A DNA stretch of 64,000 nucleotides from Lentzea sp. NBRC 102530 (GTDB lineage Bacteria; Actinomycetota; Actinomycetes; Mycobacteriales; Pseudonocardiaceae): NCBI RefSeq assembly GCF_030269365.1, contig NZ_BSTF01000016.1, positions 1 to 64,000 on the forward strand, in the 5' to 3' direction. Position 1 is the stretch's first letter, and every line of letters begins with the position of its first letter. Below, one piece after another: positions 41,650 to 49,341 of the stretch. Both the position numbers and the translations under genes were made by a program. The notes below the pieces were generated by a model that was given only the letters and a program-made list of their open reading frames with translations, had not been told where the DNA came from and made no database searches.

Positions 41650-43482
41650 TCACCGCGTCACCACCAGGTCCGCGCCCAGGGCGCGCAGTTCGTCCGGGTC
41701 GCCCGGCCCGCCGATCACGTGCACCCCGGCCGAGCGCACCAGCGGTACCAGCAGGGCGAGTCCCTGCCGGGCCAGCCGTTCCGCCGGCGGACGGGCCAGC
41801 CGGACGCCCCAGATCGGATAACGATCCACAGTGGACAGCCCGGCGAACCCTCCGCCGAACTCGTGCAGCAGTACGTGCACGCCCATGTCGTGCAGCACCT
41901 CGAGGTTCTCCTCGCCGTCCGGCAGTGCCCGCACGTCCAGCGCCAGGAACAGCGACGAGGCCGGCAACGCGCAGGCCCGCAACGTCGACCGCACGTGCGC
42001 GGCGAGGTCCTGGTCACGCGACTGGTCGCGGGACAGCCTGATCAGCACCGGCTCGCCGCGCGAGCACGCGTCCTGCAGCACCATCCGGCCGACGCGACCG
42101 GCGAGGCCCAGCGCGTCCGCGTAGTCCGCCACCTCGTCGTGGCCGGACACGCCCCAGTGCAGTGAGGCCTCCACGAAGGCCAGGTCTCCCGAGGCCCACG
42201 ACACCGGCGCGTACTCCACGGAGATCTCGCCGTTCTCGAAGGCGCCGGGCATCGCGGCGATCCGCGCGTACCTCTCCCGGCCGGCGACGTCGGCCTCGTG
42301 GTCGTAGAGAGCCCACTGCCGCTTGCCGCCGGCCTCGGCTCTGCGCAACGTCGAGTGCGCGCGCCGCAGCACCGCCGTCGGGTCGACGCCGGAGCCGGAC
42401 GTGTGCACGAACCCGATCGACGTCGACACCGCGACACCGGCGCCCTGCAGGTACACCGGCTCGGAGAGTTCCTCGTCGATCGTCGCCGCCAGCGCCGCGA
42501 CGTCGGGGGAGCCGTGGATGAGCACCACGAACTCGTCGCCGCCGACCCGTGCGACGACCGCGTCCGGCAGCACGACCCGCAGCCGGCGCGCCACCTCGAC
42601 CAGCACGGCGTCACCCGCGACGTAGCCGAGGCCGTCGTTGACGATCGTGAGGCTGTCGACGTCCAGGTACGCGAGCGTGTGCGGTTCGCCGGTGGCGAGC
42701 GCGGACTCCAGCTTGTCGGTGAACGACGCCCGGTTCGGCAACCCGGTCAGCAGGTCGGTCAGCGACTGGTGCCGCAGCCACTCCTGGAGCATCCGCTGCT
42801 CGGTGACGTCCTCGATCAGCGCGACGTGGAACTTCGGCAGCCCGTCCGACCCGCGCAGCACGGACAGCACGACGTTGGCCCACACCGTGTCGCCGTTCTC
42901 CCGCGCGAGCTCCCACTCCCGCCGGTCGGTGTCCACAGAGGACTCCAGCATGCGCCGGCAGGCCGCCGCGAGCGCGGCCGCGTCGAGTTCGGCGAACAGT
43001 TCCTTGGGCATCTCCTCGTGACCGAGGATGGCCGCCAGCGCCTCGTTCGCCTCGACGACCGCGCCGTGCAGGTCGAAGATCGCGATGCCGACCGCCGTCG
43101 TAGCGAAGACCTGGGCGAACCGGGCCTCGCTGTCGTGCAGGTCGCGCTGCGCGTCCTCGACGGCCTTGAGCAGCGAGTCCCTGACCTTCTCCTGCTCGGC
43201 GAACAACTGGTCGCGCGTCGCCCGCACGTACCCGGACGCGAGCGCGCCGAGCACCTCGGGCCCGAACTCCGGACCGAGCACCTCGAGCGTGCGGCGCAAC
43301 GAGTCGGGGCCGGTGAAACGCTTGCGCACCAACCATTCCCCGATGGCCACCGCCGCCTGCCCGGCACGCAGTCGGGCGGCGTGTTCGTCGAGGTGCTGCG
43401 TCAGCTTCCGCCGCGACATCGGCGAGTACGCGCTCTCGATCAGAACAGCCGCCCAGCGCTGTGCGAGGGGCGAAGAGGCCAT
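41650..43482 (-). CDS. PAS-GGDEF protein with degenerate EAL domain
   Basis: The 610-residue protein has a conserved helical N-terminus (residues 1-110), a PAS domain (about 135-255; AVGIAIFDLHGAVVEANEAL), a diguanylate cyclase domain with intact ARVGGDEFVVL near residue 314 and a C-terminal EAL-like domain. The cyclase lacks the RxxD inhibitory site (VLPD in its place). The EAL domain is decayed: VEASLHW replaces EAL, HEFG replaces DDFG, and Lys of the KID motif is Arg. It should make c-di-GMP but not cleave it. No membrane helix is seen. ATG overlaps the stop of the upstream methyltransferase gene. Confidence 0.92.
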   Translation of the reverse strand: MASSPLAQRWAAVLIESAYSPMSRRKLTQHLDEHAARLRAGQAAVAIGEWLVRKRFTGPDSLRRTLEVLGPEFGPEVLGALASGYVRATRDQLFAEQEKVRDSLLKAVEDAQRDLHDSEARFAQVFATTAVGIAIFDLHGAVVEANEALAAILGHEEMPKELFAELDAAALAAACRRMLESSVDTDRREWELARENGDTVWANVVLSVLRGSDGLPKFHVALIEDVTEQRMLQEWLRHQSLTDLLTGLPNRASFTDKLESALATGEPHTLAYLDVDSLTIVNDGLGYVAGDAVLVEVARRLRVVLPDAVVARVGGDEFVVLIHGSPDVAALAATIDEELSEPVYLQGAGVAVSTSIGFVHTSGSGVDPTAVLRRAHSTLRRAEAGGKRQWALYDHEADVAGRERYARIAAMPGAFENGEISVEYAPVSWASGDLAFVEASLHWGVSGHDEVADYADALGLAGRVGRMVLQDACSRGEPVLIRLSRDQSRDQDLAAHVRSTLRACALPASSLFLALDVRALPDGEENLEVLHDMGVHVLLHEFGGGFAGLSTVDRYPIWGVRLARPPAERLARQGLALLVPLVRSAGVHVIGGPGDPDELRALGADLVVTR

Positions 43483-44282
43483 CAGGGCTTGCGACCCACC
43501 GCGGCGTAGAGGTTCGCCTTCGACGGCTCGTCGCCGACGTCCTCGGGGGACTCGGGCCGCCACTCGGGCGTGAAGACGATGCCGGGCTCCACGATCTCGG
43601 TGCCCGCCAACATGTTCGCGACCTGCTCCTTGGTGCGCGGGGTGATCGGCTCCGCGGTCTTGGCGAAGATCTCCGCGCCGGCCGCCATGGCCGCCGGCAT
43701 GCTGTCCGCGGTGAAGTGCGACAGCGCCAGGTACGAGCCGGAGGGGAGCGATTCCACGTAACGGGACAACACGCCCCAGGGGTCGTCCGAGTCGGGGATG
43801 AACTGCAGGACGCCGACGACGAGCAGCCCGATCGGCTGAGTGAAGTCGAGGTGTTCCCTTGCTTGCGCAACGACTTTCTCCGGCTCGCGCAGGTCGGCGA
43901 GCAACGCCGTCACGTTCGGCTCCTCGGAGAGCATCAGCTCCGCGTGCGTGATCGCGACCGGTTCGAAGTCGACGTAGACGACCTTCGAGTCCGGGGCGAC
44001 CTCGTGCGCCACCTCGTGCACGTTGCCGACCGTCGGGATGCCCGACCCGAGGTCGAGGAACTGCCGGACGCCGAGCCCGGCCAGTTCCAGAACGGCCCGG
44101 CGCAGATAAGAACGGTTGAGCCGCGCCATCGCCCGCACGGGCAGGACCTTGATCAGAGCTTCCGCCGTCGCCCGATCCGCCTCGAAGTTGTGCCCGCCGC
44201 CGAGCAGGTAGTCGTAGATCCGGGCGGAACTCGGGACGTCGACGTTGACACCTTCCGGAACCCAGCTGACTCGACCGACCAC
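43482..44282 (-). CDS. DUF574 SAM-dependent methyltransferase
   Basis: The 266-residue methyltransferase of the actinomycete DUF574/Methyltransf_19 family has the N-terminal signature SSARIYDYLLGGGHNFEADR and the SAM motif QFLDLGSGIPTVGNVHEVA. Motif II is VVYVDFEPVAITHAE. The family is much expanded in Streptomyces and relatives, with unknown substrates. GTG 44282 has GAGAGG about 9 bases upstream. The ATGA overlap with the GGDEF gene suggests co-translation, an unexpected pairing with c-di-GMP metabolism. Confidence 0.92.
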   Translation of the reverse strand: MVGRVSWVPEGVNVDVPSSARIYDYLLGGGHNFEADRATAEALIKVLPVRAMARLNRSYLRRAVLELAGLGVRQFLDLGSGIPTVGNVHEVAHEVAPDSKVVYVDFEPVAITHAELMLSEEPNVTALLADLREPEKVVAQAREHLDFTQPIGLLVVGVLQFIPDSDDPWGVLSRYVESLPSGSYLALSHFTADSMPAAMAAGAEIFAKTAEPITPRTKEQVANMLAGTEIVEPGIVFTPEWRPESPEDVGDEPSKANLYAAVGRKP

Positions 44283-44382: not shown

Positions 44383-44826
44383 TCAGAGGATGAACCAATC
44401 GGTGCAGCCACTTGCGAACCGGAACCTCACCGGCCCTCGTGGCGCGACCCCCATCACGAACGACCCCAGTTCGTCCACCTCGGCCGTCTCGTGGTCGCCG
44501 TTCGGCGTCACGAGCGTGATCGGCCCGGAGGCGGGCACCAGCTGACCGGTCACCCCGGCCGCGGACACCTCGACCTGCAACATCACGCCGTCCGCGTCGA
44601 ACACCAGCTGCCGCGCCGTGGCCGTGGAGCGCGCACGGGCGAACAACGTGTCGTCGAGAACGGAGTCGTACGACGTGATGAGCAGCAGCTCCTCGTCGAT
44701 GGTCCGCCAGGTGAAGGCGGCCTTGGCAGCCTCCACGAACTCCGGCGGGACCTCCTCGGAAGGTGTGCTCAACGCGTCGCGCAAGGCGTCGAGCAGTACT
44801 TCGTCACTGTCCCAGTCGTGCCGCAC
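44383..44826 (-). CDS. Small protein overlapping a sigma factor gene
   Basis: The 147-residue protein is not assigned to a known family. It starts MRHDWDSDEVLLDALRDALS, has a helical N-terminal third (FVEAAKAAFTWRTIDEEL) and a beta-rich C-terminal half (LVFDADGVMLQVEVSAAGVT, VRFRFASGCTDWF). The GTG start at 44826 was chosen because AGGAGG lies 8 bases upstream and within the sigma gene, giving a 23-base overlap. The coupling suggests a regulator of that sigma factor, for example an inhibitor. No membrane helix or zinc anti-sigma motif is seen. Confidence 0.8.
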   Translation of the reverse strand: MRHDWDSDEVLLDALRDALSTPSEEVPPEFVEAAKAAFTWRTIDEELLLITSYDSVLDDTLFARARSTATARQLVFDADGVMLQVEVSAAGVTGQLVPASGPITLVTPNGDHETAEVDELGSFVMGVAPRGPVRFRFASGCTDWFIL

Positions 44827-45421
44827 CCAGCACACCTCCTCTCTTGGCCGGAGACCCCAGGAACGCCGAGAGCGCCGTGGTCTTCCGCAGTTTCTCCAGG
44901 CAACGTATCCGCGTCGGGCCGATGCTGCCGACCGGCATCGCGAGCTCTTCGCTCACGACCTGGTAGCTCGGCGGCGGATCGGTCATCAGCTTCGTCAGCA
45001 ACCGCTTGCACTGGTCCGTGAGCTCGGCGAACCCGTCGCGCAACGCCTGCCGCCGTTCCACCGCCAGCAGGTCCGCCTCCACGTCCGCGTCCACCTGTTC
45101 CGACTCCAGCGCGTCCGATTCGGACAGCGGGTCGTACAGGTGCGTTCGCTGCTGCACGCGCAGCACGCGCAGGCACTCGTTGCGGGTGGTCGTCATGATC
45201 CAGCCGGGCAGCGCCTCCGGCTCGCGGAGCCGTCCGATCTGCTCCACGAGCCGCAGCCACAGCGTCTGGTTCACGTCGGCCGCATCCGAAGGGCGCAGCC
45301 GGTGCTTGTAGATCACCGACACCACCAGCGGCGTGTAACGGTCCACGATCTCGTTCCACGCCGACTGGTCGCCCTCGGCCGCCGCGCTCACGAGCGCGGC
45401 GATCGGGGATGCAGAGGTCAC
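44804..45421 (-). CDS. ECF-like sigma factor of the CHAT/S8 locus
   Basis: The 205-residue sigma factor has region 2 (YTPLVVSVIYKHRLRPSDAA, ADVNQTLWLRL, LPGWIMTTTRNECLRVLR) and region 4 (LTKLMTDPPPSYQVVSEELA, then MPVGSIGPTRIRCLEKLR). Region 3 is absent, as in ECF sigmas. GTG 45421 has AAGGAG 6 bases upstream. It is followed by an overlapping small gene and preceded by an S8 protease gene on the same strand. Confidence 0.93.
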   Translation of the reverse strand: MTSASPIAALVSAAAEGDQSAWNEIVDRYTPLVVSVIYKHRLRPSDAADVNQTLWLRLVEQIGRLREPEALPGWIMTTTRNECLRVLRVQQRTHLYDPLSESDALESEQVDADVEADLLAVERRQALRDGFAELTDQCKRLLTKLMTDPPPSYQVVSEELAMPVGSIGPTRIRCLEKLRKTTALSAFLGSPAKRGGVLGAARLGQ

Positions 45422-45475
45422 GTCGACTCCTTGCGGTCACAACTGGCGGAGGCCGAGGTTGCCTCGCAGATACAA

Positions 45476-46675
45476 CTATTTGACAAAAACTCCGTAGCCG
45501 GCGTGGAAGACCGGCCCGGCGAGCAGCTTGTCACGCGCCTGACGTGCGTCGATGCCGTCCGCGACCATCGTGGCGGCGATCCGTCCGGTGACCAGGGGAG
45601 CGGCGAACGACGTGCCGTACCAGTACGCCCACAGCGCGAACGGCGTCGCCGAGGCCTCACCGGGCAGCTGCCACTCGCCCTTGAGGTAGGTCGAGGCGCG
45701 GTTGCCGACGGCGCAGGCGTCGACCCAGTGGCCCCAGTTCGAGTAGAACGCCGGGGCGAGCGAGCCGTCGCGTTCCTGCTGGGCGGCGGCGACGGCGGTG
45801 ACCCCGCACAGCGCGGCGGGCCAGCTCGGCCGTTGCGTGCCCTGGTTGCCCGCGGAGGCGACCACGACGATGTCGTCCGGCAGCGCCTCGATCGTGCGGC
45901 GCAGCGGTTCGGACGCCACGTCGTCCTCGGTGAAGCAGCCCAGCGACAGGTTCAGGACGTTGACCTTCTTGCGGCCCAGTTCGGTGATCTTGCGGCAGAT
46001 CCGCTCCTCGTCACCGAACCCGTTGGGGTCGAGGCCGACCTCCGGGTCGAACGTGACGCCGGGCGCCGCGTTCTGGATGACGCCCGCGACGAACGTGCCG
46101 TGCCCGCCCTGCAACGCGAAGTTGTCGCCACTCGCGTAGGCGGCGTCGACGTCGTCGGCCTCCTTGGCGTAGCGGCCGTCGAACCAGTCGGAGTGCTCGC
46201 TGCTCGCGCCCTGCGAGATGCCGGTGTCGATGATGCCGACCCGGACCTCCTTCAGGCGCTCGTCGAACTTCGGCGCCGCGACCGGGTCCGTCGGGTGTGG
46301 ACGGTCGCCGGGGTTGCCCATGACCAGACCGCCGTGGCCGACGACCACGTGGTGCGGCTGCACGAGCGGCACGCGCTCGTTCGGCCAGTTCCGCTGGTCG
46401 CGCAGGAGGCGGACAATGCGCGGAATGTCCTCCGCGTTGTTCGGCAACGTCAATCGCGCCAAACCGGCGAATCCTTCGCCGGGCCGCGCGTCGATGTTGT
46501 TTTCGCGCAGCTTTTCGACCACGCGTTGTTGGTCCTCGGCTCCGACGAGCAACTGCCCCGGCCGATAAAGGAATTCACGCCCGCGTTCGGCGTGGAAGCT
46601 GATGTTCTTGTCCTCGGCGATGAGCTGCAGGAAAGCTCTTTGGTAAAGCTCCGCGCTTTCTGGCGTTTTCGACAC
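45476..46675 (-). CDS. Cytosolic S8 (subtilisin-like) serine protease
   Basis: The 399-residue protein has a complete subtilase triad: Asp150 in VRVGIIDTGIS, His192 in QGGHGTFVAGVI and Ser356 in WYGTSFAAPLV, with the oxyanion Asn277 in VASAGNQG. Residues 1-110 resemble a propeptide-like region (FLYRPGQLLVGAEDQQRVVE). There is no signal peptide or membrane helix, so it should stay inside the cell, unlike most subtilases. GTG 46675 was chosen over TTG 46726 because GAGG precedes it. It diverges from the CHAT gene across 77 bases. Confidence 0.92.
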   Translation of the reverse strand: MSKTPESAELYQRAFLQLIAEDKNISFHAERGREFLYRPGQLLVGAEDQQRVVEKLRENNIDARPGEGFAGLARLTLPNNAEDIPRIVRLLRDQRNWPNERVPLVQPHHVVVGHGGLVMGNPGDRPHPTDPVAAPKFDERLKEVRVGIIDTGISQGASSEHSDWFDGRYAKEADDVDAAYASGDNFALQGGHGTFVAGVIQNAAPGVTFDPEVGLDPNGFGDEERICRKITELGRKKVNVLNLSLGCFTEDDVASEPLRRTIEALPDDIVVVASAGNQGTQRPSWPAALCGVTAVAAAQQERDGSLAPAFYSNWGHWVDACAVGNRASTYLKGEWQLPGEASATPFALWAYWYGTSFAAPLVTGRIAATMVADGIDARQARDKLLAGPVFHAGYGVFVK

Positions 46676-46715
46676 CACGGCCTCACTAAAGCAGCGTTGA
46701 CGGGCACCCCGACCG

Positions 46716-46729
46716 AGCTTGATCAAGCT
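46716..46729. promoter_or_regulatory. Perfect 14-base palindrome in the S8-CHAT divergent promoter
   Basis: AGCTTGATCAAGCT is fully self-complementary and central in the 77-base gap between the divergent protease genes. It overlaps a possible -35 (TTGATC, 46719-46724) for the CHAT gene. It is a good candidate operator or sigma-specific element. Confidence 0.55.
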
Positions 46730-46746
46730 ACCACAGCGGATAAAGT
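46719..46746 (+). promoter_or_regulatory. Candidate CHAT promoter
   Basis: TTGATC (46719-46724) and TAAAGT (46741-46746) are separated by 16 bases. Transcription would begin at about 46753, the GTG start codon, so the mRNA is probably leaderless. No ribosome site is visible. Confidence 0.45.
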
Positions 46747-46752
46747 GTTGCC

Positions 46753-49341
46753 GTGACCGACTTTTCCGCCGAGGACGCGCTGGAGGCCAGGCAGCGCAAC
46801 CCGCGCGCCGCCGTGGAGATGGCGCGCGCGGTGCTCCGCTCGACGGAAGATCGCTCGGAATCCTCGATCGCGGAGCGCGCGATCGGCCTCGCGCTGCGCG
46901 AGCTGCACGACTTCCCCGGCGCGGCCCGGCACCTGCGCCGCTCGATCCGCATCGCGTCCGAGGCCTCGTTGCCCCGGCTGGCCGCGCTGGCGCAGATGAG
47001 CCTCGCGTGGGTGCTCGCCTACACGGGCAAGCAGAAGGCCGCGCTGACGTTGCTCGACGACGCGATGCCGGAATTGTCCGGTGCCGACTCGGTGGCGGCG
47101 TTGATGCAACGCGGCGTCGTCTTCCACTACCTGACCCGGTACGACGATGCGCAGCGCGACTACACCGCGGCCATCGCCGGCGCCCGCCGCGTGGGTGACC
47201 AACTGGTCGAAGCGCGCGCTCTCAACAACCGCGGGCTCGTGCGCGCGTACGTCGGCAACATGCGCGAGGCGTCGGCCGACTTCTCGCTGGCCGCCTCGTT
47301 GCTGGGGGAGCTGGGGCAGGAGCTCGGCGTCGCCGACGTCAACTGGAACGCGGGCATCATGGCCACGCGCGGCGGTGACGTGCCGGCCGCGCTGTCGCTG
47401 TTCGACCAGGCCGAGGAGGTCTACCGCCGCCTCGACGTCATGCGCCCGGTGCTGCTGGTGAACCGCCTCGAACTGCTGGTCTCGGTGCCGCTGCTGGACG
47501 AGGCCCGCGCCGCCGCCGACCGCGCGATCGTCGAGCTGAAGGACCTGAAGAACCCCCTGGGCGTCTCGGAGGCGCTGTACTTCCGCGCCCGCATCGCCCT
47601 GCTGGACGACGATCCGGACGCCGCCAACGCGTTCGCGGCCGAGGCGCGCCGCCGGTTCCGCCGCGAGCAACGCCTGCTGTGGGCCGCCGGTGCGCGGTAC
47701 CTGGAACTGCACGCCGCCGTGCTGCGCGGTGACCGGTCCCGGCCGTTGCGCCTCGCGTTGTCCCGGGTCTCCGCCGAGCTGGACGCGATGGACTGGCGGC
47801 TGCCCGCCCTGGAAGCCCGCATCGACGCCGGTCTGGTCGCCGCCGACCTCGGGCACCGCGCCCGTGCGGTGTCCGAGCTCTCCGTCGCGGCTGCCGCCCG
47901 GCTGCGCGGCCCGGCGGGGCTGCGGGTGCGCGGCTGGTACGCGGAAGCGTTGCGCCGCAAGCTCTGCGGTGACGTCCGGGGCACGTCGTCCGCGCTGCGC
48001 CGCGGTATCGGGCTGCTCGACGAGTACCGGGTGTCGCTGGGGGCGGCCGAGTTGCGCGCCTCCGCAGGGGTGCAGGGGCAGGCGCTGGCGGCGGAGGGGC
48101 TGGCGCTGGCGATGGCGTCGGGCAGTGCGTCCCGCGTGTTGTCCTGGACCGAGAGCTGGCGGGCGGGCGCGTTGCGGATGAAGTCGGTCTCGCCGCCGGA
48201 CGATCCCCGCCTCGAGGACGCCCTCGCGTCGTTGCGCGCGGTCTCCGCCGACGTGGAGTCCGCCGTGCTGGCCGGGAAACCGGCCGGGTCGCTGCGCGCC
48301 AAGCTGGTGCGCGCCGAGCAACGCGTCCGCGACCTCACCCGCCAGGTGTCCGGCGAGGTCTCGGTCTTCAAGCCGCCGTCGGTCGCGTCGCTGGCCGCCG
48401 CGCTGGGATCGTCGGCCCTGATCGAGTTCGTCGAGCACGACGGCGCGCTGCTGGCCGTGGTGCTGGCGGACGGCCGGGCCACGTTGCACCCGCTGGGCCC
48501 GGTGGACGGCGTGGTCCGCGAGATCCGCCTGCTCCGCTTCGCCCTGCACCGCCTGGTGACCCTGCCGCCGAACCTGCCGAACCTGGCCGTGGCGCGGTCG
48601 TCCGCGTCCCACGCCGCTGCCCTGTTGGCCCGCCGCCTGCTGGAACCCCTGGCCGCGCGCATCGACGGCAGGCCGCTGGTGGTCGTGCCGACCGGTGCCC
48701 TGAACGGCCTGCCGTGGGCCGTGCTGAACCGCCAGGTGACGGTCGCGCCGTCCGCCTCCGTCTGGCTGCGCGCCTGGTCGGTCCCGGACGCCGCGGGCGA
48801 GGCCGTGCTCGCCGCCGGGCCGCGGATGGCCGCCGCCCCCACCGAGATCAAGGCCATCAGCGCCCACGTCGCGGGCCGCGTCCTGGTCGACGCCGAGGCC
48901 ACCGTGAGCGCCGTCGCGTCCTCAATGGACGGTGCCGCGCTGGCCCACATCGCCGCGCACGGCTCGTTCCGCGTGGACAACCCGCTGTTCTCCGCGCTGG
49001 AACTGGCCGACGGCCCGCTGACCGTCTACGACATCGAACGCCTGCGCCGCCCGCCGACGCGGGTCGTGCTGTCGGCGTGCGACACGGGCCAGTCGGCCGT
49101 GCGCCCCGGCGACGAGCTGATGGGCTTCACCGCCGCGCTGCTGAGCCTCGGCACCCGGACGTTGATCGCGCCCGTGGTGCCGGTGCCGACCGACGGCACG
49201 GCCCCGGTGATGGTGGAGCTGCACCAGAAACTCGCCGCCGGCACGGCCCCGGCCGAAGCGCTGGCCGCTGTGCAACGGGCTGCTTCGGATGACGCCGCTT
49301 ATGCCGCGGCAGTGGGGTTCGTCTGCTTCGGCGCGGGGTGA
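46753..49341 (+). CDS. TPR-CHAT caspase-like protease
   Basis: The 862-residue protein has an N-terminal TPR superhelix (about residues 5-420; e.g. EARALNNRGLVRAYVGNMRE) and a helical linker. The C-terminal CHAT domain (about 550-860) has catalytic His736 in AHIAAHGSFRVDNPLFSALE and Cys776 in VVLSACDTGQSAVRPGDELM. CHAT proteases are caspase-related; TPR-CHAT (Csx29) cleaves a sigma-factor regulator in type III-E CRISPR. The nearby sigma factor, small protein and S8 protease suggest an analogous proteolytic signalling system here. Both catalytic residues are intact; no signal peptide is present. Confidence 0.94.
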   Translation: MTDFSAEDALEARQRNPRAAVEMARAVLRSTEDRSESSIAERAIGLALRELHDFPGAARHLRRSIRIASEASLPRLAALAQMSLAWVLAYTGKQKAALTLLDDAMPELSGADSVAALMQRGVVFHYLTRYDDAQRDYTAAIAGARRVGDQLVEARALNNRGLVRAYVGNMREASADFSLAASLLGELGQELGVADVNWNAGIMATRGGDVPAALSLFDQAEEVYRRLDVMRPVLLVNRLELLVSVPLLDEARAAADRAIVELKDLKNPLGVSEALYFRARIALLDDDPDAANAFAAEARRRFRREQRLLWAAGARYLELHAAVLRGDRSRPLRLALSRVSAELDAMDWRLPALEARIDAGLVAADLGHRARAVSELSVAAAARLRGPAGLRVRGWYAEALRRKLCGDVRGTSSALRRGIGLLDEYRVSLGAAELRASAGVQGQALAAEGLALAMASGSASRVLSWTESWRAGALRMKSVSPPDDPRLEDALASLRAVSADVESAVLAGKPAGSLRAKLVRAEQRVRDLTRQVSGEVSVFKPPSVASLAAALGSSALIEFVEHDGALLAVVLADGRATLHPLGPVDGVVREIRLLRFALHRLVTLPPNLPNLAVARSSASHAAALLARRLLEPLAARIDGRPLVVVPTGALNGLPWAVLNRQVTVAPSASVWLRAWSVPDAAGEAVLAAGPRMAAAPTEIKAISAHVAGRVLVDAEATVSAVASSMDGAALAHIAAHGSFRVDNPLFSALELADGPLTVYDIERLRRPPTRVVLSACDTGQSAVRPGDELMGFTAALLSLGTRTLIAPVVPVPTDGTAPVMVELHQKLAAGTAPAEALAAVQRAASDDAAYAAAVGFVCFGAG

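Follow-up and report, generated by a model that had tools for sequence, protein, structure and literature searches.

The first 64,000 bases of contig 16 of the 9.5-Mb genome of Lentzea sp. NBRC 102530 (hereafter, the window) carry four neighbouring genes, encoding an extracytoplasmic function (ECF)-type sigma factor, a 147-residue protein that we term X, an S8 (subtilisin-like) protease and a TPR-CHAT protease, which form a real, conserved module in which the order of the genes varies and the set persists. We propose, with a confidence only slightly above even, that this module is a cytosolic protease-controlled sigma switch, in which the CHAT protease would cut X and so free the sigma factor. 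The grounds in hand are the conservation of the module, the intact active sites of the proteases, the homology of X to longer proteins, a nearly invariant arginine in a linker of X and, as far as a predicted structure can indicate, the anatomy of X.

The layout agrees with the original prediction, as the open reading frames were found where it had placed them and their domains were assigned by Pfam in a scan of seven window proteins. X, the candidate anti-sigma factor and protease substrate, is encoded at 44383..44826 on the minus strand (its frame is also listed from an upstream GTG, as 44383-44835); it gave no Pfam match at E up to 1 and no NCBIfam match at E up to 0.1. Its gene overlaps by 23 bp that of the sigma factor (44804..45421, minus strand; Sigma70_r2, 8.2e-13; TIGR02937 sigma70-ECF, 2.1e-18, residues 21-180), and a GGAGG lies 8 nt upstream of its GTG at 44826. 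The S8 protease gene (45476..46726, minus strand; Peptidase_S8, 1.6e-21) follows, and the TPR-CHAT gene (46753..49341, plus strand; Pfam CHAT, 5.8e-34, and TPR) diverges from it, with the caspase-clan CHAT domain at residues 622-848 (48616..49296, plus strand). The numbering Asp150, His192 and Ser356 given earlier for the S8 catalytic residues, together with a 77-base gap to the CHAT gene, corresponds to a GTG start at 46675; counted from the TTG at 46726, the same residues are Asp167 (46226-46228), His209 (46100-46102) and Ser373 (45608-45610), all on the minus strand. Those of CHAT are His736 (48958-48960) and Cys776 (49078-49080) on the plus strand. No strongly hydrophobic stretch was found in the four window proteins (19-residue Kyte-Doolittle mean, maximum 1.44), and the S8 protease has no evident signal peptide, as predicted.

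To survey the module, profiles of the four proteins were scanned over fetched DNA stretches, labelled with L-numbers. Among 40 stretches of the family, picked from X, CHAT, S8 and sigma matches, the sigma gene was present in 38 with X adjoining in the same 38, and all four genes were present in 35; the order >S8 >SIG >X >CHAT (arrowheads give direction) occurred in 14 of the 40. A set of 57 named loci was found through X only, with a single peptide pattern biased towards X like that of the window, and here the sigma gene adjoined X in all 57, S8 was found in 56, CHAT in 55 and all four genes in 55, the exceptions being L193, at a contig end, and L205, with two sigma-X pairs and two S8 genes. 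The order was <CHAT >S8 >SIG >X in 36 of these loci, <S8 >CHAT >SIG >X in 10, >SIG >X <S8 >CHAT in five and a different one in each of six single cases. They range from Lentzea, which supplies the loci closest to the window (X identity up to 93%), to Nocardioides and Acidimicrobiia. The occurrence of the four genes together elsewhere, which the original prediction had named as a check, is borne out, and their shared company in varying gene orders exceeds chance expectation.

X is tightly linked with the sigma factor: 135 of 138 X matches had a same-strand sigma gene within 316 bp, with a median of 22 bp between the domains, so that the small protein does recur beside the sigma factor; in the three exceptions the sigma gene lies on the other strand (L211) or is absent (L234 and L240). 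Where a CHAT-S8 pair stood without sigma and X, a sigma-X pair was found elsewhere in the same genome in six of six cases (L140/L286, L155/L156, L220/L280, L221/L281, L222/L282 and L228/L284), and these sigma-X partners had no CHAT in the fetched stretch. A further set comprised the next 60 CHAT loci of a longer list ordered by similarity, taken without regard to sigma or X; their stretches span 10-15 kb, and contig ends truncate some of them. Among these, 33 had X, four had S8 only, one had sigma only and 22 had no partner; 17 of the 60 were sigma-X-CHAT loci with S8 absent from the stretch. In a tree of 133 of 162 CHAT fragments (FastTree, midpoint root; 11 fragments shorter than 600 residues and 18 Lentzea loci of near-identical sequence left out), the 23 CHATs lacking both X and S8, one of which (L262) does have a sigma gene, formed one clade with a support of 1.0, beside sigma-X-CHAT loci. 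The CHAT gene therefore does not mostly occur without the others. Separately, 11 of the 23 orphan TPR-CHATs (L242, L243, L246, L253-L255, L257, L260, L262, L266 and L272) have, ~80-370 bp upstream on the same strand, a short frame with His residues and C-x-GG-C or C-x-GGG-C near its end; the same loose pattern was found upstream of other CHATs in only three of 131 cases.

The module is widespread in the phylum, with many soil actinobacteria among its carriers. A single-sequence search found X in at least 28 of 150 family genomes, which is a lower bound because profiles found more X, and a phylum-wide search with an X profile, in which 10 candidates were scored per genome, found it in 40 of 396 genomes and 26 of 237 genera. 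In 19 phylum stretches outside the own genome, the sigma gene stood beside X in 16 (10 with both proteases, two with CHAT only and four with neither in the stretch); ten further stretches had sigma and X in 10 of 10 and both proteases in eight. The Lentzea genome itself has a second sigma-X pair (L349; contig 11, ~239 kb), with no CHAT or S8 within its 14.5-kb stretch.

The catalytic residues of both proteases are intact, as the original prediction had read. Of 162 CHAT fragments examined, 10 were gapped at His736 and Cys776, and all 152 with letters at these positions kept both residues. All four residues of the S8 quartet (D/H/S/N) were present in 106 of 118 fragments; the remaining 12 were short of one aligned letter, and of these eight had all three motifs (Asp, GHGT and GTS-F-A) in an open frame, while four (L160, L163, L229 and L248) did not match all three. 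The AlphaFold2 (AF2) model of TPR-CHAT has a mean predicted local distance difference test score (pLDDT) of 91.4, and its Foldseek matches, with modest template modelling (TM) scores and large root-mean-square deviations, were separases (best 1.2e-15), Csx29 (8eey_B, 8.2e-15, TM 0.41) and DdvA (8rw5, 1.6e-12). With the CHAT-domain profile, DdvA was the nearest solved chain (1.1e-10), its His and Cys aligned, followed by Csx29 (2.1e-7). Intracellular subtilisins are among the solved chains nearest to the S8 protease.

The AF2 model of X, built from 46 sequences (mean pLDDT 75.6, predicted TM score 0.51), suggests a protein of two parts. The N-terminal part, residues 8-51 (44674..44805, minus strand), is helical and presumed to bind sigma; its helices (8-20, 28-39 and 46-51), like a further one at 59-68, were modelled with low confidence. 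Residues 72-147 (44386..44613, minus strand) form a beta-sandwich with a mean pLDDT of 89-96 per ten-residue block, which matches the carboxypeptidase-regulatory-like domain (CarboxypepD_reg-like; PF13620) in 11 of the 46 aligned members (best 4.4e-7) and also the solved biofilm surface protein 7dm0_A (4.3e-6). The carboxypeptidase-regulatory-like domain is not a peptidase.

Longer forms of X occur in two deep-branching families (L348, L350-L357 and L402-L405), and these 13 loci have the sigma gene in 13, CHAT in 12 and S8 in 11. The two forms are homologues that align along 120 columns with a probability of 98 and an E of 1.3e-13; short X is shared from residue 25 on, its alignment with long X running from VPPEF onwards, and it keeps VPPEFVEAAKAAFTWR, a stretch that aligns with the long form. 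The N-terminus of long X matched the NCBIfam anti-sigma model NF052375 in seven of nine members with E values of 1 or less, the best (5.1e-5) still falling short of the model's cut-off. Compared with 13 zf-HC2 proteins, taken from 30 fetched loci for a long enough frame and C-x-x-C, it gave an E of 3.2e-4, and with the 12 of them that have an ECF-like sigma gene upstream, 2.0e-4; 13 control slices from short X, sigma and CHAT reached 0.19 or worse against the zf-HC2 alignment. These similarities weakly support an anti-sigma-type domain in the long relatives of X. By eye, stretches like VPPEFVEAAKAAFTWR are also readable in some of the zf-HC2 proteins, C-terminal to the zinc finger, and in L295 and L299 a short frame downstream of sigma resembles the first part of X only, as if the beta-sandwich had been lost.

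Between the two parts of X lies a linker modelled with low confidence (pLDDT under 50 at residues 61-69), and in it stands Arg66 (codon 44629..44631, minus strand), which conservation marks as a candidate cleavage site. In 157 X sequences, among them the query and 21 others of the Lentzea kind, with identical and short sequences left out, this column was Arg in 155, though neighbouring columns vary; the preceding residue (P2) was V/A/T in 135 of the 155 and the following one (P1′) S/G/A/T in 148. Arg followed by a small residue (R[SGAT]) was present in 155 of the 157 linkers, against a mean of 98 and a maximum of 113 when the linkers were shuffled in place (1,000 rounds), counts that are not independent, the sequences being related by descent; other Arg residues of X were followed by S/G/A/T in 464 of 1,463 cases. 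Caspase-clan relatives, for instance separase, metacaspases and clostripain, cleave after Arg. Of 23 X sequences near a CHAT whose fetched stretch has no S8, 22 keep the Arg, which favours CHAT over S8 as the cutter. Across 35 sigma sequences, no column at residues 86-133 was invariant or nearly so, which points to X rather than sigma as the substrate.

From these features we infer the following sequence of events. The N-terminal helices of X would hold the ECF sigma factor inactive, and the TPR domain of TPR-CHAT would sense an intracellular cue. CHAT would then cut X in its exposed linker after Arg66, between V/A/T-Arg and Ser/Gly/Ala, and the cut would separate the sigma-binding part from the beta-sandwich. 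The X fragment would be lost, perhaps aided by S8, which may finish or relay the cleavage, and the freed sigma factor would bind RNA polymerase. Read as a protease-released sigma factor, as in the original prediction, the locus is plausible in its logic, and this reading is supported by the Arg site and to a lesser degree by long X.

Several observations weigh against this switch. L234 and L240 are S8-X-CHAT loci without sigma, and among the 19 phylum stretches L331 and L346 have X and no sigma, while L330 has a weak sigma match on the other strand; on account of these loci, X may act apart from the sigma factor. Relatives of CHAT and sigma also exist without X, as the 60 CHAT loci and a set of 20 sigma matches away from the loci already examined indicate: nine of the 20 had X, and 11 had no detected X alongside (one, L287, ends ~0.4 kb past sigma). 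The resemblance of long X to anti-sigma factors is weak. Its N-terminus matched zf-HC2 in two of nine members (0.016 and 0.11) and the RskA chain 4nqw_B at 0.38, the HH-suite probability against zf-HC2 is only 17-22%, no anti-sigma model passes its cut-off in long X, and the nine aligned long X have no visible zinc ligands; the first part of the window's short X has no similarity to the anti-sigma domain (E 0.17-0.32). The conserved Arg66 could, moreover, be structural or serve sigma binding.

Three other explanations have to be weighed. Conserved neighbours of the carboxypeptidase, subtilase and CHAT kinds led to the proposal that sigma factors of group ECF54 are controlled by proteolysis, with no anti-sigma factor involved (PMC8999054, section 3.3); by the same logic the sigma factor could be the direct target of the proteases of the window, which would degrade it and so keep it off. 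The neighbours do match this published context in that CHAT, S8 and X are all present, the carboxypeptidase appearing only as a CarboxypepD_reg-like domain in 11 of 46 X. However, the ECF54 neighbour called 'carboxypeptidase' is probably X, a predicted non-catalytic protein of helices and a beta-sandwich, and the label probably arose because this sandwich resembles the carboxypeptidase-regulatory-like domain. Since, in addition, long X weakly matches anti-sigma models and the conserved column lies in the X linker and not in sigma residues 86-133, we regard direct degradation of sigma as unlikely.

A slightly lower probability falls to a two-protease cascade, in which S8 would be the main protease acting on X and TPR-CHAT would activate S8 or only sense. 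S8 is near 56 of the 57 named loci, pairs with CHAT in the split modules (L140, L155, L220-L222 and L228) and resembles intracellular subtilisins; yet in 17 of the 60 CHAT loci the fetched stretch shows sigma, X and CHAT but no S8, which may be encoded elsewhere in those genomes, and X near such S8-less CHATs keeps its linker Arg. A version in which CHAT cuts S8 at an Arg was rejected, as none of the columns that are invariant or nearly so in a 35-sequence S8 alignment is Arg. Least probable of the three, and doubtful, is that X serves the two proteases as substrate or adaptor and has its own function, for instance as an effector that cleavage liberates, while the sigma factor only drives expression of the operon. 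The four loci that hold X without sigma fit this explanation, as does the AF2 model of X, whose confidence is highest in the sandwich, but X stays with sigma where the proteases are not near (L156, L280-L282, L284, L286 and L296), and the weak anti-sigma matches of long X again point the other way.

Outside the four genes, the window holds, adjoining X at 41653-44282, genes for a Methyltransf_19 (S-adenosyl methyltransferase) protein and a PAS-GGDEF-EAL protein (Pfam). Between S8 and CHAT lies CAAGCTACCACAGCGGATAA (46724..46743, plus strand), a possible promoter or operator that varies little among the Lentzea, Saccharothrix and Umezawaea rows. A regulon search with this 20-mer found a single site in the own genome at up to 3 mismatches, the reversed control pattern also giving one, and because of this single occurrence no regulon is proposed. 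X was also considered as a phage- or plasmid-borne gene and rejected as such: the plasmid search gave a single record, a Nonomuraea replicon of 11.85 Mb that is catalogued as a plasmid and whose X stretch has no annotated genes; one long X gave no match against plasmids, and the long-X alignment found no relative among viral contigs. A known defence system was likewise rejected, as the PADLOC matches were limited to weak ones for S8 and CHAT (subtilase, IetS and BovA).

The neighbourhood as such is not new, as it fits the published description of ECF54 (PMC8999054); what is added here is the likely identity of X and a candidate cut site. The likeness in gene context consists in an ECF-type sigma factor with subtilase and CHAT neighbours, and the difference in the third neighbour, which here is probably no peptidase but X, a possible anti-sigma factor. 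Among the matches of an open-access literature search, no paper dealt with X or with a cleavable sigma-X-S8-CHAT switch, and only PMC8999054 gave the ECF54 context; the available parts of PMC8103513 and PMC7159879 contain nothing on CHAT. The EACC2-caspase systems also join a caspase-domain protein to an ECF sigma neighbour and TPR (DUF1822) genes, but the partners described for them are EACC2 and TRADD-N, and X is not mentioned in the available part of that source (PMC8195603).

The original prediction had seen in the locus a CRISPR-free relative of Csx29 and Csx30. Csx30 inhibits CASP-sigma, and its processing by Cas7-11-Csx29 relieves the inhibition; the N-terminal part of Csx30 suffices for binding, and neither fragment inhibits (PMC10028731). 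The likeness to Craspase lies in a TPR-CHAT protease with a His-Cys dyad, as found here, a sigma factor and a cleaved inhibitor, for which X is the candidate here; the differences are that here an S8 protease is added, that X has 147 residues and that the candidate site is Arg followed by a small residue, the Csx30 fragments being described as 1-428 and 429-565 (PMC10028731). Membership did not hold up alongside this shared logic. The window CHAT scored 19.5 bits on the Csx29 model NF041237, whose cut-off is 300, and no array-like direct repeats were found in window positions 30000-60000. X as a relative of Csx30 was rejected, as Csx30 was neither among the three Protein Data Bank (PDB) chains matched at E up to 1 nor among the best 50 of 832 Foldseek matches, a weak test in that no match reached E 0.001. 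A family link to Csx29 or Csx30 beyond the shared TPR-CHAT architecture is therefore not supported, and the module is Craspase-like in logic, not a member. Other CHAT-like frames of the genome (contig 2, ~222.8, 404.6 and 575.7 kb) score higher on the Csx29 model, up to 49.1 bits, all below its cut-off.

Outside CRISPR, DdvA sets a precedent for a link between a CHAT protein and an ECF sigma factor: it is the anti-sigma factor of the ECF sigma factor DdvS in Myxococcus xanthus (PMC4374960; PDB 8rot and 8rw5). DdvA is a single protein, titled a transmembrane anti-sigma factor in the PDB entries, whereas here TPR-CHAT and the candidate anti-sigma factor are two proteins, neither with evident membrane helices. 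We entertain, at somewhat less than even confidence, a wider picture in which X would be a soluble anti-sigma factor open to cleavage and TPR-CHAT a cytosolic, separase-like sensor protease specific for Arg; together with S8 they would make a CRISPR-free switch across Actinomycetota with a type III-E-like logic, DdvA being the fused form in Myxococcus. If this is true, caspase-clan proteases would control transcription in many actinobacteria through the cutting of a soluble anti-sigma factor, the regulation of the ECF54-like sigma group would be explained and the reading of its 'carboxypeptidase' neighbour corrected, and Craspase would have a CRISPR-free counterpart amenable to assay with four purified proteins and a single point mutation (R66A).

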